Below are positions 8,437 to 60,962 of a DNA stretch of 64,000 nt, in pieces (position 1 is the first letter of the stretch; each line of letters opens with the position of its first letter). A program made the translations under genes and the position numbers. The stretch lies in the NCBI GenBank assembly GCA_963971575.1, contig OZ020620.1, forward strand, positions 38,083,992 through 38,147,991, read 5' to 3'. Under the pieces are notes generated by a model. It ran no database searches, was not told the origin of the DNA, and saw only the letters and a list, made by a program, of their open reading frames with translations. The stretch is from Liopterus haemorrhoidalis (lineage: Eukaryota > Arthropoda > Insecta > Coleoptera > Dytiscidae).

Positions 8437-9482
8437 TTCCATTTTTAGGGTTTTGTAGGTATGACCAAAAACCCTTATACCGTCATTTTGTCGTCTGTCT
8501 GTCTGTTCGGTAAAAATTGTAGCCAAACGGCTAAACCTAGAGAATTGAAATTTGGCATGCTTATATAACTCTTTGACCCGCACATAGGAAAAATACTAAA
8601 ACATCTAAAAAACATATCCCCCTAAAAATATAAACAAATATATGCTCATCGAAAAAAAAAATATATATATATATTTTTTTACAATTCTGTGTAGGGTATC
8701 AAATGAAATCCCTTGGTACGTGGATTAACGATCAAAATTTTATTTTTGCAAAATAAATTATTTTGAAAGGATTTATGCCAAAATTGTTCAAAAAATTTTT
8801 TGTCCCACACCCTGTAGCCCAGATGGTTTAAACTAAAAATCTGAAAAAATTCTAAGTAATGTACATTGGTGTGAACCGTACGACAGGAATTTTTGATCAG
8901 ATTATGTTTTCGCATTTTTTGTGTTTTTAACTAAAATATGTAAAATATTTAATCCCCTATTTAACACAGTAAACGAGTGAACGTCCGTAGTCCAGTGGTA
9001 ACGTTATCGCTTCGTAAGTTACAAACTACTGTTCGAATCCCGTCAATTTTTATTTTTTTTCTGTTTGTTTTTTACATTTTTATTTTGTTTAAATTATTTT
9101 GTCAAAATTCTAGTTATATTTTGGCAAATGTTGCATTTAATTTTTAAAAGCGTAAATTTAATAACCAGTGGGAAGTGTTGAAATTATAATTTAATTCTAT
9201 GTTTGAATGTATACGAAATAAGAGGGGCGGAGTTTATGACTTAAACAACCAATGGAAGCCGTAGGCGCAATTTTCAAAATATTAATGAGCATTGCTATAT
9301 AAAAAAAATACTGCAAATATTTATAAACCCAAATAATGGTATTAGGCATTCGAATTAAAATTAATACAAAATTATTTTAACATAAAATTTGTTTTGGCAT
9401 CCCAAATAATCATCATTCACTTACTAAATACCTGCGAAACCCTGAAATGTGTTAAAATTCACACTTCACAGAAATTTTTTCT
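8437..9482 (+). mobile_element. Fam-A element copy 2
   Basis: Forward, essentially complete and uninterrupted copy, the best single reference in the window. Order: TTTTTAGGGTTTTGTAGGTAT (8444 onward), (TCTG) run 8494-8507, the core GTAGCCAAACGGCTAAA, a tRNA-like cassette at 8978-9043, the subterminal repeat ATACCTGCGAAACCCTG near 9428, a hairpin (here GTGTTAAAATTCACAC), TTCACA and a T-run. Confidence 0.8.
8978..9043 (+). other. tRNA-like cassette in Fam-A copy 2
   Basis: TAGTCCAGTGG (8988-8998) matches the box A consensus exactly. TGTTCGAATCC (9030-9040) matches box B at 10 of 11 positions. The 31-bp spacing fits a tRNA. I could not draw a convincing full cloverleaf, so it is not called as a tRNA gene. 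Confidence 0.55.
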
Positions 9483-9630
9483 TTGTTGTATCTGTCTATT
9501 TTTTCTTGGGTGTTCTCTTTTTCATTTACTTTAAATTCTGGTTTGTAAATTCTTTTAGTTCTTTCTTCGTTGATTCTTTTAACGTGATAAATCTCCTTTA
9601 AAGACTGGGATAATTACGTCGTTACTTATA

Positions 9631-10228
9631 CCCTTTTCACACTAGATCTTTAAGATCGGATGTTAAAGTGAATGTATCTTTAAACGCTAATGTGAAACCG
9701 TATGGCCTCGTTTAAATACAAGCGATGTTTAAGACAGAGATCTGCGTCTTAAACTTCGTCCGCATTGCCAACTTAATTTCTATTATAAAAAAATACTCCT
9801 TGAATTTGTGCTGCCAACATTTTATATTATCATAAACAAGAATACTGTATTATATCGACGTTATAAGAAGTTTATACTTATTGTTATAATAAAATTATTT
9901 ATTTTAATAATGTGTTTAATAAAATACAGAGCTACAATAATTGAGATAAAATGTATCGACTTACATGTTAATACAGGTGTAATATATTCGTTATTGTAGT
10001 GTCTTTATTGTAGAATGAAATGAAATATCATTATTTGTTTATAATAATTCAAAATGTGCGTCTGCGCAGACAGTTCAAAACTGGTAATTGCAAGATGGTA
10101 ACTTAAGGACAAAATTACTGTAGCTGATGACAGTACCAGAGATTTAAACATCAAGTGTGAAAGCATACCGATCTTAAACATCGGTGAACTTTAAGTTCAC
10201 TCGTCTTAAAGATCTAGTGTGAAAAGGG
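9631..10228. mobile_element. TA-flanked MITE with 25-bp inverted repeats
   Basis: Ends CCCTTTTCACACTAGATCTT and AAGATCTAGTGTGAAAAGGG are near-perfect inverses, with TA on each side (9629-9630 and 10229-10230). Subterminal TCTTTAAA/TTTAAGA words repeat. Open frame 9808-9999 has no motif. TA targets suggest a Tc1/mariner-type transposase but the superfamily is not proven. Confidence 0.8.
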
Positions 10229-10439
10229 TATTAGAAATATTCAAGAAGACATTGTTAACAAATTAACCTAGTTTCAATAATTTGTTTTCCGAAGATTTAT
10301 TTTTTATGGTTCTTTACAAAGCTCGTGTTTAGCAATTTTCACAATAGTTAAAGAGTTTTATTAACATTCTTTCACATAAAACAGTTATTGATAACAAGAT
10401 AAAATTGTTTAAACAGTAAAACAAAATAATAAAGGTTAG

Positions 10440-58386: not shown

Positions 58387-59270
58387 CAAGGTGTGTAAAT
58401 TAAGTAACCAGACCGATTTTTTAATATTCTTTTTATTCGAATAGAATTACAATTCAATATTCCCTCAAAATAACTTTCTTGGGAATTCACACAGTGCTGG
58501 AGACAGTTTTGTCCAATCCTCATAGCAGTGCTGGAACACGGATACTGGTATATCTTTCAGCTGGTCGGTTACGGACGTTTGAATGTTTTCGAGTGTCCCA
58601 AAATGACATCCCTTGAGGTGATATTTCAATCTTGGGAAGAGGAAAAAGTCATAAGGACTCAAGTCAGGCGAATAAGGAGGCTGAGTAGCCACAGGAATGT
58701 TTTTACTGGCCAAAAACTCGTTTATTGAAATTGCACATTTTTCTCATCCCAATTAATTGTACAAATCTGATGAATGGTAGTGTTAATTAAATTCAACTCT
58801 TCCCCGATCATTCTGACTGTCAACCGACGATCTGAACGCACAATATCCCGGATTCTGTCGACATATTCATCGGTTCTTGAAGATGAAGGCCTTCCGCTGC
58901 GTGATACATCTTCAATCAACTCTCTTCTGAAAATGCCTTAAACCACCAAAAAACCTGGGTCCTTGACAAAACACTGTCTCCGTAGGCCTGCTGAAGTTTT
59001 GCAAAAGTTTCCGTTACGTGCCCAAGTCTGAAGCAAAACCTGATAGTACACCGTTACTCGAAATGAATGTCAGTCGTTTTTAGAACAAAACTGTTTCACG
59101 AAAAAAATCGCTACGGATAACAAAATTACTCTAGCTTGTTCAAACTCGTACTGAAGACGTTCATATGTTCACCTGCAGCCCCTCCAAGTCCCGAGTTCCA
59201 AATGTTGCCAGATCAACCGCTATGTTCCCAGTCCGGTTACTTAATTTACACGATTAATTTGTACACCTCA
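58387..59270 (-). mobile_element. mariner (irritans-like protein) deletion derivative
   Basis: Ends CAAGGTGTGTAAATTAAGTA and TACTTAATTTACAC...GTACACCTCA are inverted over GTGTAAATTAAGTAACC(A/G)G. The right end carries an extra local duplication of GTGTA(A/C)AAATTAA. TA dinucleotides flank both ends (58385-58386 and 59271-59272). 884 bp. Confidence 0.85.
58465..59040 (-). pseudogene. mariner transposase: N-terminal and C-terminal parts fused by deletion
   Basis: Minus-strand reading: FCFRLGHVTETFAKL and SVLSRTQVFWWF with frameshifts (59040-58930). The open frame 58919-58722 follows with IEDVSRSGRPSSSRTDEYVD, RIRDIVRSDRRLTVRMIGEE and LNLINTTIHQIC, the second helix-turn-helix preceded by the GRP AT-hook-like motif. 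A second frame, 58713-58465, then starts at PVATQPPYSPDLSPYDFFLF. It contains the last catalytic aspartate, followed by PRLKYHLKGCHFGTLENIQT and the family C-terminus. The middle, with the first two catalytic aspartates, is deleted. Resembles the mariner lineage that gave rise to SETMAR. Confidence 0.87.
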
Positions 59271-59695
59271 TAGCTTATGCTATGAATTGAAAAGTTTCTG
59301 ATTTGGATACGTTCTTTAAAGCAATGTTGAATATAGTATGTAGGTAGAACAAAATTAACTTTGTTTTAAACACAAAACTTTTGTCTGTTACACGAGAACA
59401 TAGCGTAAGTATACGCCTATCTAAAAAACAGGATTCGTGTCTACATTATCAGATCGTTTGTAGTAAAAGATTTGAAGATAAACAACATTTAAAAATAAAA
59501 AATTAGTTTTAACATGTAAATATATTCCTCTCAACATTACGACACATAAAGATTTATATATTAACTTTTATCATATTATCATATTTCTTTATATGGTGAG
59601 ATTTTTCAACGGAATAACCTGTAGAATTTATACAGCGTAATTTAATTTTTTCTTAATTCTTTAAATACTTTAAGTTTTAATCTTTTGATTTAGAG
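59271..59695. other. Unassigned AT-rich sequence
   Basis: Nothing recognised up to the hAT target duplication. Confidence 0.35.
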
Positions 59696-59944
59696 CAGTG
59701 CTGTCCAACTTTTATAAGAAATGCCGGCAATTTTTATTTTGAAAATATTAAGTAGGCAAAAAAAGGATAGGTCCATATCGTGGACTACGAAAATTGACCA
59801 AGTCACATATTGGCAAAGTTGAGAATATTGCTTTATAAGTTCAGATACTTCCTAACATTGACAGTGCAAGCTCTAAAAATCTGGAGGGGCCAGGAAATAT
59901 TTGATTAAAATCTGGGGGGGGGGGCAGGAATTTGAGGACGGCAT

Positions 59945-60962
59945 CATTTTTAGGGTTTTGTAGGTATGACCAAAAAACTCTTATACCGTCATTTTGTCGT
60001 CTGTCTGTCTGTCTGTCTGTCTGTCTGTCTGTCTGTTCGGTAAAAATTGTAGCCAAAGTTGATATTTGGCATGCTTATACAACTCTTTGACCCGCACATA
60101 GGAAAAATACTAAAACATATCCCCCTAAAATTATAACCAAATATATATTCATAGAAAAAAAAAATGTATTTTTTTACAATTCTGTGTAGGGTATCAAATG
60201 AAAGCCCTTGGTACGTGTATTAACGATCAAATTTACATTTTTACAAAATAAATTATTTTGAAGCGATTATTGCCAAAATTGTGCAAAAAATTTTTTGTCC
60301 CACACCCTGTAGCTCAGATGGTTTAAACTAAAAATCTGAAAAAATTCTAAGTAATGTACATTGGTGTGAACCGGAATAGTACAACAGAAATTTTTGATCA
60401 GATTATGTTTTTGGAAAAAAACTAATTTTTTGTGATTTTTGGCTAATAATGTACACAAGTTATAGCTTTGTAACACGCTACAGTGGAACGTGTATGCTGG
60501 TATAGTGGTTTTTGACGTTGGTTTTTCACCCAAGTAACTCGATCCGAAAGGGATCGAACCCTGCGAGAAGAGACAATATTATTATTATTTTTTTTTTTTT
60601 TTATTTTTATTTTGTTTAAATTATTTTTTCAAAATTCTAGTTATATTTTGGCAAATGTTTTAATTAAATTATAATTTAATACTTTTTCAATGTACACGAA
60701 ATCAGAGGGGCGGAAATTATAACAACCAATGGAAGCCATAGGCGCAATTTTTAAAATTCTTAATGAACCTTGCTATATAAAAAAAAAAAAATACTGCACA
60801 TATTTAGAAACCTAAATAATGGTATTAAGCGTTCGAATTAAAATTAACAAAAAAAAATTTTAATATAAAATTTGTTTTCGCATCCCAAATAATCATGATT
60901 CACTTACTAAATACCTGCAAAACCCTGAAATGTGTGAAAATTCACACTTCACATCAATTTTT
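59945..60962 (+). mobile_element. Fam-A copy 10
   Basis: Forward complete copy: TTTTTAGGGTTTTGTAGGTA, TCTG units 60000-60036, the core (missing part of ACGGCTAAACC), a tRNA-like cassette at 60485-60570, AATACCTGCAAAACCCTG, the hairpin GTGTGAAAATTCACAC and TTCACATCAATTTTT. Confidence 0.87.
60485..60570 (+). other. tRNA-like cassette in Fam-A copy 10
   Basis: TGGTATAGTGG (60498-60508) is a perfect box A. GGATCGAACCC (60551-60561) fits box B (GWTCRANNC) fully. GGTTTTTCACCCAA could form an anticodon-like hairpin. This is the most tRNA-like of the six cassettes. Confidence 0.58.

Follow-up and report, generated by a model that had tools for sequence, protein, structure and literature searches.

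The 64-kb window, the whole stretch of DNA that was analyzed, harbors six copies (c1 to c6) of a mobile element designated Fam-A, together with a 5′ fragment of the element and an old, diverged relative (Table 1). An internal cassette with box A and box B motifs is present in each copy. An earlier note on this DNA had described six copies with shared flanks, and its coordinates proved correct: the upstream 20-mer produced five matches with ≤3 mismatches in the window compared to 0.06 expected, and the downstream 20-mer eight matches at the same threshold, six of which are Fam-A, compared to 0.31 expected. A deletion in c2 breaks the upstream word. The four exact box A motifs that the note had counted (c1, c2, c5 and c6, with one mismatch each in c3 and c4), a good box B in most copies (0 mismatches in c4, one in c2 and c6, two in c1 and c5) and the existence of cassette subtypes, which separate c2, c3 and c4 from c1, c5 and c6, also were upheld. 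When both strands of the whole window were scanned, box A plus box B pairs with ≤2 mismatches appeared in eight rows, all within the six cassettes and at least one per cassette. Pairs with exactly three mismatches occupied 11 rows, comprising four in cassettes, one opposite-strand overlap with c4 and six elsewhere. The scan revealed no recognizable cassette in the old relative.

Across the 1.02-Gb host genome, a 34-base word from the Fam-A flank occurs at 29,216 sites; a word filter was passed by four of the six window copies and failed by the other two. Fam-A is a family of tens of thousands of rolling-circle copies with a near-constant backbone.

Table 1. Positions of Fam-A copies, cassettes and related features in the window.
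Feature	Position	Strand	Remarks
Fam-A copy c1 (HINE)	399..2053	-	blast and termini
Segment in c1 without match in c4/c5	about 576-1097		probably an insertion
c1 cassette	1443..1496	-	box A 1496-1486 (0 mismatches), box B 1453-1443 (2), then T-run
Fam-A copy c2	8446..9470	+	
c2 cassette	8988..9040	+	box A 8988-8998 (0 mismatches), box B 9030-9040 (1)
Fam-A 5′ fragment	13672..13932	-	
Fam-A copy c3	15927..17258	+	(TGTC)n array 15971-16264
c3 cassette	16771..16834	+	box A 16771-16781 (1 mismatch), box B 16824-16834
Old diverged relative	44859..45618	+	73-77% in matching pieces; similar 3′ terminus
Fam-A copy c4	48994..50033	-	
c4 cassette	49410..49474	-	box A from 49474 (1 mismatch), box B 49420-49410 exact
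Fam-A copy c5	50872..51621	-	5′ truncated
c5 cassette	51388..51452	-	box A from 51452 (0 mismatches), box B 51398-51388 (2)
Fam-A copy c6	59951..60953	+	
c6 cassette	60498..60561	+	box A 60498-60508 (0 mismatches), box B 60551-60561 (1)

Helentron anatomy and the autonomous partner

DINE-1/HINE elements and Helentrons are described as possessing subterminal inverted repeats, a partial 5′ inverted repeat, a GTCY microsatellite and a 3′ palindrome, as residing at T-rich insertion sites, and as having an autonomous partner that encodes Rep, a helicase and an endonuclease (PMC4067079; PMC2374699). Fam-A shares the repeats, microsatellite and palindrome as well as an autonomous partner, and its members are non-autonomous Helentrons of the HINE/DINE-1 type. 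The elements possess the subterminal inverted repeat AGGGTTTYGYAGGT, a (GTCT)n array, a 3′ palindrome and T-runs at both ends. One subterminal inverted repeat is located 5′ and one ahead of the 3′ hairpin (AGGGTTTTGTAGGT / ACCTGCGAAACCCT), and the palindrome GTGTGAAAATTCACAC lies near the end of c1, c3, c4, c5 and c6, and of c2 with one change. The T-runs that flank both ends of the copies shown may reflect insertion into T-rich sequence without target site duplication.

The autonomous partner is ~10.3 kb in length, has termini in common with Fam-A, and consists of the Fam-A 5′ region, the slot of which is filled by a cassette of the partner's own (L157, L158), an open frame of 2492 aa and the Fam-A 3′ end (L154 866-954, L159). 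The frame includes DUF6570, Helitron_like_N and PIF1 helicase domains and a C-terminal endonuclease match (PF03372 on L160 residues 680-816, E 7.6e-5) whose score of 23.0 bits is just below the Pfam cut-off of 24.5. Both a Rep and helicase partner that shares the Fam-A termini and the C-terminal endonuclease in that partner are as expected for Helentrons and HINEs. The autonomous cassette matches subfamily S19 at 165 of 168 aligned bases, and neither the slot nor its orientation varies among the sampled copies and the two autonomous ones. Fam-A is not an orphan element but derives by deletion from an autonomous Helentron having the same slot.

A hypervariable slot on a near-constant backbone

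Conservation of the slot and flanks was compared in 95 copies picked regardless of cassette. The commonest base had a frequency of 0.91-1.00 over the 200 bp that precede the slot and of 0.92-0.98 over the 100 bp that follow, compared to 0.60-0.64 in the slot core. Loci L001-L030, which had been picked for similarity to c3, were excluded from this profile as well as from consensus distances, within/between-type ratios and youngest-clade variant counts; the profile also omitted the truncated L055 and L098, in which two cassette types lie in tandem as judged by eye. Subfamily consensuses differed with p of 0.46 in the core versus 0.05-0.07 alongside, which bears out the notion of a fixed slot whose content turns over much faster than the backbone. 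An upstream-flank divergence of 12-15% for S10 was rejected as an artefact of broken single copies, which also inflates the upstream mean of 0.049.

The ratio of between-type to within-type difference was 0.8-2.2 in the first 400 bp and 5-17 in the slot, but also was 5.6 in the first downstream window (700-750) and 14-40 in the 3′ block. Variability is thus not confined to the slot, and the block before the 3′ terminus is type-specific too. A leader of ~60 bp diverges together with the core across cassettes. In the youngest clade, shared-variant sites amounted to 17 of 79 in the core versus 20 of 421 in the flanks (p 6e-6) with similar private rates, although linked sites are not independent in this test and the comparison of core with leader yielded p 0.07. 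The core displays an excess of source-level change.

Box motifs and tRNA relatedness of the cassette

Box A plus box B at ≤3 mismatches was detected in 25 of 27 subfamily consensuses and 77 of 97 single copies, compared to one of 97 upstream and none of 97 downstream flanks. The mean number of mismatches was 1.93 versus 5.91 for shuffled sequence. The truncated S26 fails at the ≤3 threshold, and S14, which is among the largest types, has a poor box A and four mismatches, a value that does not set it apart from most upstream flanks. Between subfamilies the boxes differed with p of 0.34 and 0.29 versus 0.59-0.62 in adjoining sequence, in an alignment that was anchored on the boxes and therefore favors them. 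Box B was slow within types too (0.018 versus 0.036 and 0.022), and box A showed post-insertion decay (0.079) like that of its neighbors (0.054 and 0.071). Both boxes are kept in most subfamilies, T-runs follow the cassettes, and TTTT is found between the boxes in four consensuses. At the level of motifs, the A and B boxes and T-runs have the arrangement of Pol III type 2 genes, and constitute a putative internal Pol III promoter as in SINEs.

Sequence comparison indicates that the cassettes are tRNA-related, though not in every subfamily. The host-tRNA model R1 produced 24 matches in 70 loci (best E 3.5e-4), 18 of which lay in the cassette on the sense strand as assigned by hand from locus orientation; without the SINE in L093, 18 of 23 matches were in the cassette (binomial p 7e-14). 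In the window, the c3 cassette (16764-16816) was the top of 13 tRNA-model matches, yet with E of 0.53. When aligned to 12 host tRNA sequences, 17 of 23 cassette cores outperformed shuffles, but six, namely the autonomous cassette (51 of 200 shuffles) and S17-S21, lacked significant tRNA likeness. The tRNA-like content that the earlier note had proposed is supported. The best host isotype was Ala for S1 and S3 (scores of 37-38) and Lys for S5 (37). S15 was closest to Thr, with a best piece identical at 17 of 19 positions; S16 and S22-S25 were closest to Val, S7-S9 to Ser, and S11 and S12 to Arg. Outside S1, S3 and S5 the scores were 22-30 and the boxes dominated. The beginnings of S21 and of the autonomous cassette resemble host tRNA-Val, the 5′ strand of the acceptor included, at a level that is not significant (28 and 51 of 200 shuffles). 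Consensuses of S2, S4, S13, S26 and S27 were excluded from the box-divergence, folding and host-tRNA alignment comparisons.

An intact or functional tRNA gene was rejected, as tRNA models fail to recognize the cassettes: ARAGORN identified no tRNAs in the window or in the 27 consensuses, and at E≤10 the covariance model RF00005 matched neither the window nor any of 24 loci. Rfam scans of the window and loci returned other families only, which were taken as chance or low-complexity matches. Folding was ordinary (mean z of -0.48 over 23, with +1.78 for the autonomous cassette), but this test is weak because host tRNA-Val itself reaches merely -1.27.

Origin and significance of the cassette

The preferred reading, which is considered probable, takes the established anatomy, partner, tRNA relatedness, box retention and excess of source-level change as its basis and holds that one old tRNA-derived Pol III module diversifies fast in active lineages on a homogenized backbone, in a Helentron and its HINE derivatives. 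Under it, Fam-A derives through internal deletion from the ~10.3 kb autonomous Helentron, and autonomous and non-autonomous copies alike carry, ~500 bp from the 5′ end, a tRNA-derived promoter unit in which a T-run terminator follows the A and B boxes and for which an RNA of roughly 80-100 nt is predicted. The unit would be old, probably with a single origin. In actively copying lineages it would change several times faster than the backbone, with the two boxes mostly kept, as bases are substituted, arm-sized pieces alter its length and lineages exchange content. The 5′ backbone would be homogenized across lineages, and template switching or recombination among copies is the probable cause. 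TFIIIC/Pol III may occupy the unit, and the element may benefit from it.

The earlier note instead favored repeated capture or gene conversion of tRNA/SINE promoters. In such a scenario, the slot core would be replaced time after time by host tRNA genes or by the heads of tRNA-SINEs, and each subfamily would reflect a different isotype. This now seems unlikely. The best host isotype does differ between subfamilies (Ala, Lys, Thr, Val, Ser and Arg), and the start of S21 and the autonomous cassette is tRNA-Val-like, though not significantly, but scores besides those of S1, S3 and S5 are weak and box-dominated. Several isotypes are resembled, but none of the sampled slots contains a near-identical host tRNA. 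Moreover, the cassettes align colinearly and share the ~60 bp leader that diverges along with the core. All 15 pairs of the six window segments align better than 200 shuffles each, with the leader and T-run included and raising the score. The note had conceded that alignment of the cassettes as one slowly diverging sequence would count against it; with colinear boxes and edges and alignable segments, this is partly the case, although the divergence is fast rather than slow.

It also is doubtful that the slot is an unconstrained spacer between constrained cis-elements in which the boxes are remnants of an ancient tRNA-derived insertion: weak folding and the abundance of S14 despite its poor box A would fit, but the boxes are retained between subfamilies and present in nearly all consensuses, and roughly 500 bp of non-coding, A+T-rich flank would have to be under constraint. 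Host defence could also exert diversifying selection, with silencing (small-RNA or other) that sees the cassette or its RNA and an element that escapes by change outside the boxes, and this could explain the surplus of shared variants in the youngest-clade core. Such selection is distinctly unlikely, as flank constraint or homogenization could give the same surplus and the limits of linked sites and of the core versus leader comparison apply. Insertion of ordinary tRNA-derived SINEs into a DNA transposon is highly improbable, for although the Pol III boxes have SINE-like spacing, the slot and orientation are constant in the sampled copies, the cassettes run into a T-run without an A-rich tail, and 93 of 95 copies share no word of >9 bases (longest 7-9) across the cassette. 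A fresh SINE insertion was rejected likewise, as neither an A-rich or LINE-like tail nor a long target site duplication was found at the cassettes, in contrast to L093 where a 14-base duplication surrounds a real SINE insertion.

In tRNA-derived SINEs, the head is a degenerate tRNA that bears both boxes. The Fam-A cassette resembles such a head, but is internal, lacks an A-rich tail, has no duplication that was seen and belongs to an element with DNA transposon termini. In the main text of PMC4067079 on DINE-1/HINE elements, neither 'tRNA' nor 'polymerase III' appears, whereas Fam-A and its partner carry a hypervariable tRNA-like unit in a fixed slot. Oyster Cg_HINE shares the HINE anatomy and has a highly variable 10-500 bp segment past the microsatellite, but this leads into satellite-like tandem repeats, and the word 'tRNA' is absent from the main text (PMC7492417). 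The Helenus, Ajax and Cassandra TRIMs similarly place a small-RNA-gene-derived Pol III promoter, tRNA-like in Helenus, within another element class, but are LTR retrotransposons that need an RNA copy (PMC10886601), whereas Fam-A is a rolling-circle DNA transposon. A possible tRNA in Helitron context also is found in Arabidopsis, where tRNA-Cys clusters overlap a Helitron annotation; according to PMC10701932, none of three Helitron-finding tools yielded a reliable prediction at these clusters, and the authors note that capture would be the first non-coding RNA acquired by a Helitron.

No earlier report was found of a near-constant rolling-circle backbone with a lineage-specific, worn tRNA-like cassette that mostly retains the boxes. 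Pattern scans of IMG/VR, from which records near the window's genome possibly were excluded, gave 0 contigs and hence no second species. Elements that move via RNA are expected to carry Pol III promoters. The use of such a promoter to a rolling-circle DNA transposon is not obvious, and its retention in lineages of the latter raises a testable question about the role of TFIIIC/Pol III. Tentatively, the transposon and its derivatives might depend on a tRNA-derived Pol III/TFIIIC module that is recurrently diversified at a lineage-exchanging slot. If so, the module may act in chromatin access, replication stalling or short RNA production, its diversification would mean either that host tRNAs renew it or that it evades silencing by the host, and the transposon would, to our knowledge, be the first of the Helitron class whose life cycle requires a part derived from a non-coding RNA gene. 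The homogenized backbone set against a diversifying core of ~80 bp provides a natural experiment on the exchange of parts between transposon lineages.

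Conserved flanks and a variable slot

The six window copies of Fam-A, a non-autonomous Helentron family of HINE/DINE-1 type, were extracted and aligned, and in all six alignable flanks surrounded a differing segment as the earlier note had described; its two flanking 20-mers occur in the window much more often than chance predicts. This segment, the cassette, comprises a leader and a core and occupies a fixed internal slot. In the host assembly (1,020,077,131 bases, 91 contigs) a 34-base upstream-flank word gave 14,654 forward and 14,562 reverse matches with at most one mismatch, and the reversed word used as a control gave none. 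The first 100 sites listed for the word, all on contig C1 at 0.49–4.33 Mb and chosen blind to the cassette, were combined with the window and 30 further loci. This yielded 129 copies with both flanks and nine lacking the downstream flank, which come from one chromosome end and were required to contain the word, so that type frequencies among them are not genome-wide estimates.

Conservation by column was assessed in 95 copies with cassettes of 130–215 bp (91 from the listed loci, four from the window). The share of the commonest base, as 20-column means, was 0.91–1.00 over 200 bp upstream of the slot, where requiring the 34-base word biases conservation upward near that word, dropped to 0.60–0.64 in the core, recovered to 0.92–0.98 over ~100 bp downstream, and was 0.79–0.86 beyond. 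Average linkage sorted the cassettes of the 129 copies into 20 clusters (distance 0.2) or 11 (distance 0.3); a cut of 0.17 supplied 27 working consensuses (S1–S27). Among the 11 subfamilies with at least four copies each (79 copies), p between consensuses rose from 0.049 upstream, where broken copies of S10 raise the value, to 0.27 in the leader and 0.46 in the core, with gaps adding 22% in the core, then fell to 0.07 immediately downstream and was 0.21 farther on. Over these five blocks the distance of copies to the consensus of their subfamily was 0.037, 0.022, 0.055, 0.017 and 0.024, respectively. These two sets imply that post-insertion decay of the core is at most ~3 times that of the flanks, compared with a 7–9-fold excess in the difference between source lineages. 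Along a set of 27 sequences, the 5′ region of an autonomous partner element among them, the ratio of between-type to within-type difference was 0.8–2.2 over the first 400 bp, ~3 at 400–500, 5–17 at 500–700, 5.6 at 700–750 and 1.8–3.4 at 750–900; a second type-specific block, with ratios of 14–40, precedes the 3′ terminus.

Further features of the window and of two loci elsewhere in the genome
Sequence	Position	Feature
Window	12601–12796; 18131–18500; 28080–29041	Dispersed family with TGTC arrays, distinct from Fam-A
Window	28206–28861	Nearly pure (TGTC)n array, ~164 units
Window	5746–6759; 40758–40814	Repeated units with ATCGAT-centred palindromes
Window	26230–26670	Open frame, putative non-LTR reverse transcriptase protein end (by resemblance)
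Window	53605–54024	Open frame, putative mariner transposase fragment (by resemblance)
Window	63283–63707	64-bp tandem repeat, 6.6 copies, within the most G+C-rich 2 kb
L038	after 1560	Leader broken by an insertion, a putative transposase-coding DNA element (by resemblance)
L093	284–543	tRNA-derived SINE at the slot edge

Promoter boxes and tRNA relatedness

Pol III motifs were represented by TRGYNNARYGG, or this with one extra base, for box A and by GGTTCGANNCC for box B. Both strands of the 64,000 bases were scanned for a box B lying 20–74 bases after a box A. Pairs with a combined two mismatches or fewer occurred eight times, all inside the six cassettes, each of which was matched at least once, and the four exact box A sequences claimed previously were confirmed. 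At three mismatches there were 11 pairs: four in cassettes, one on the opposite strand overlapping copy c4, and six elsewhere. The dispersed TGTC-array family yielded no pair of the two boxes.

Of the 27 consensuses, 25 had an ordered pair with at most three mismatches, as did 77 of the 97 single copies, compared to 1/97 upstream and 0/97 downstream flanks; mismatches averaged 1.93, versus 5.91 in shuffled sequence. The exceptions were S14, whose four mismatches are reached by most upstream flanks too, and the truncated S26. TTTT followed box B by 6–28 bases in 24 of the 25 box-bearing consensuses (S4 being the exception), and lay between the boxes in S7, S8, S16 and S17, which would weaken the predicted transcription of these four. 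Acceptor-like stems paired better with their own partners (mean 4.36) than with swapped ones (3.55; 0 of 500 permutations) across 22 consensuses, some of them related, and were unbroken for 7–8 bp, allowing G-U, in S18, S19, S21 and S23. Folding energies were ordinary (mean z −0.48 over 23 cassettes), the host tRNA-Val itself attaining only −1.27. Retention of boxes and T-run alongside ordinary folding suggests that a putative promoter was kept more than a cloverleaf.

No tRNA gene was called by ARAGORN in the window or the 27 consensuses, or with Rfam in the window or 24 loci. A covariance model built from 11 host tRNA genes was run unfiltered on 70 loci (E ≤ 10) and gave 24 matches, of which 18, including the six best, were sense-strand matches within the cassette; the top match scored 19.0 bits (E 3.5e-4). 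One of the other six was the SINE of L093 and five were elsewhere. The cassette share, 18 of 23 with the SINE match set aside, compares with ~11% expected from an estimated cassette length (p 7e-14). The best of 13 matches in the window was the cassette of copy c3, at E 0.53 only. When 23 cores were aligned with 12 host tRNA sequences of eight isotypes, the score of 17 was equalled by no more than 10 of 200 shuffles; six did not pass this threshold, the autonomous cassette and S17–S21 among them. Host tRNA-Val genes reach 92% identity to a human tRNA-Val sequence, which together with the coding fragments suggests an animal host, probably an insect. The tRNA-like content proposed in the earlier note was upheld by the model and shuffle tests, though not significantly for those six cores and with no gene call; on these comparisons the cassette is tRNA-related.

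A Helentron partner

Complete Fam-A copies have a T-run, the start AGGGTTTTGTAGGTATGACCAAAAAACCCT and then (GTCT)n, and finish with ACCTGCGAAACCCTGAAATGTGTGAAAATTCACACTTCACA (with small variations) followed by a T-run. The published DINE-1/HINE hallmarks, namely a subterminal inverted repeat, a partial 5′ inverted repeat, a GTCY microsatellite and a 3′ palindrome, are all present in Fam-A (PMC4067079, PMC2374699). The Helitron_like_N domain had 91 genome matches in at least three groups, judged by length and frame. A 2492-aa open frame occurred in two copies on contig C14, at 13.0 and 15.9 Mb, with Fam-A ends on both sides: L157 and L158 carry the 5′ region of Fam-A, in which a cassette sits between the two flanks, and L154 and L159 carry its 3′ end at 92–96% identity. 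Alignment of the first copy's cassette to the S19 consensus gave 165 matches in 168 bases. The frame, read at the protein level over its N-terminal 1025 aa and a later 833-aa part, bears DUF6570, Helitron_like_N, a PIF1-like helicase and a C-terminal endonuclease/exonuclease match; its closest named relatives are from Parnassius apollo (44–60% over part of the query). These domains and the Fam-A ends on both sides identify the ~10.3-kb partner as a Helentron, of which Fam-A is a deletion derivative. Across 891 aligned positions the two autonomous 5′ regions show three differences, besides 17 gap columns, and this near identity suggests recent activity. Two further groups of Helitron_like_N frames (contigs C16, C1, C26 and C4) had identical or near-identical scores and are perhaps recent. 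Stretches read from members of these two groups (L149–L152, L155–L156), which may stop short of the element ends, contained no Fam-A ends.

Origin and pace of cassette change

The cassettes behave as one diverging sequence, although not as the slowly diverging one that the earlier note had set against capture: each of the 15 pairwise alignments of window segments, which took in the score-raising leader and T-run, outscored 200 shuffles, but divergence is fast. Leaders diverge together with cores among subfamily consensuses and, by eye, intermediate types connect two main groups. These observations favour descent from one old module over the repeated capture or gene conversion that had been suggested. 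The best-matching host isotype nevertheless varies by subfamily (Ala, Lys, Thr, Val, Ser, Arg; 12 host tRNA sequences, with a separate comparison using 10 host and 16 human sequences), which leaves room for partial conversion of cassettes by host tRNAs. According to one account, a Helitron that captured a tRNA would provide the first case of such capture for any non-coding RNA (PMC10701932). Exchange between lineages was seen by eye in L098, in which an S6-type cassette is followed by upstream flank and then by an S8-type cassette; this tandem, joined inside the flank, is likely a trace of template switching. A fresh SINE insertion is rejected as the source, as the cassette has no A-rich tail, unlike the L093 SINE with its AAAT-rich tail and 14-base target duplication; 93 of 95 copies had no common word longer than nine bases across the cassette. 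The L093 SINE, with a head that is Leu/Ser-like by eye, marks SINE activity in the host genome.

Between 22 subfamilies p was 0.34 in box A (11 bases) and 0.29 in box B versus 0.59–0.62 in adjoining bases, a comparison in which anchoring the alignment on the boxes favours both. Post-insertion decay was 0.079 in box A versus 0.054 and 0.071 in its neighbours, and 0.018 in box B, which is slow within types too, versus 0.036 and 0.022. As box A is conserved between subfamilies yet decays like its neighbours after insertion, these values indicate that the motif is maintained in copying lineages and not in dead ones. The clade that looks youngest, S14+S15 with 28 copies, had variants common to at least three copies at 17 of 79 core, 7 of 69 leader and 20 of 421 flank sites (p 6e-6 for the core versus the flanks and 0.07 versus the leader; rough values, the sites being linked). 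Private variant rates were 0.018, 0.012 and 0.010–0.014, respectively, and the cores also differ in a ~10–20-bp block at the anticodon-arm position.

Among the open-access matches listed, as titles and abstract openings, none described Helitrons, Helentrons or HINEs with a tRNA-like or Pol III module. Recently inserted DINE-1 copies are described as without Pol III sites or tRNA-related structures (PMC2374699), whereas Fam-A has its tRNA-like slot; closest in concept are those TRIM retrotransposons that bear a Pol III promoter (PMC10886601). The best explanation, which is probable and made slightly less so by the weak S14 box match, is a Helentron derivative family carrying a single old putative Pol III unit with a fast-changing core and mostly kept boxes. 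The element class is known. What is unusual is the slot, fixed in position, hypervariable and tRNA-derived, which the Helentron shares with its derivatives; it is genuine and, within the literature searched, has not been described.
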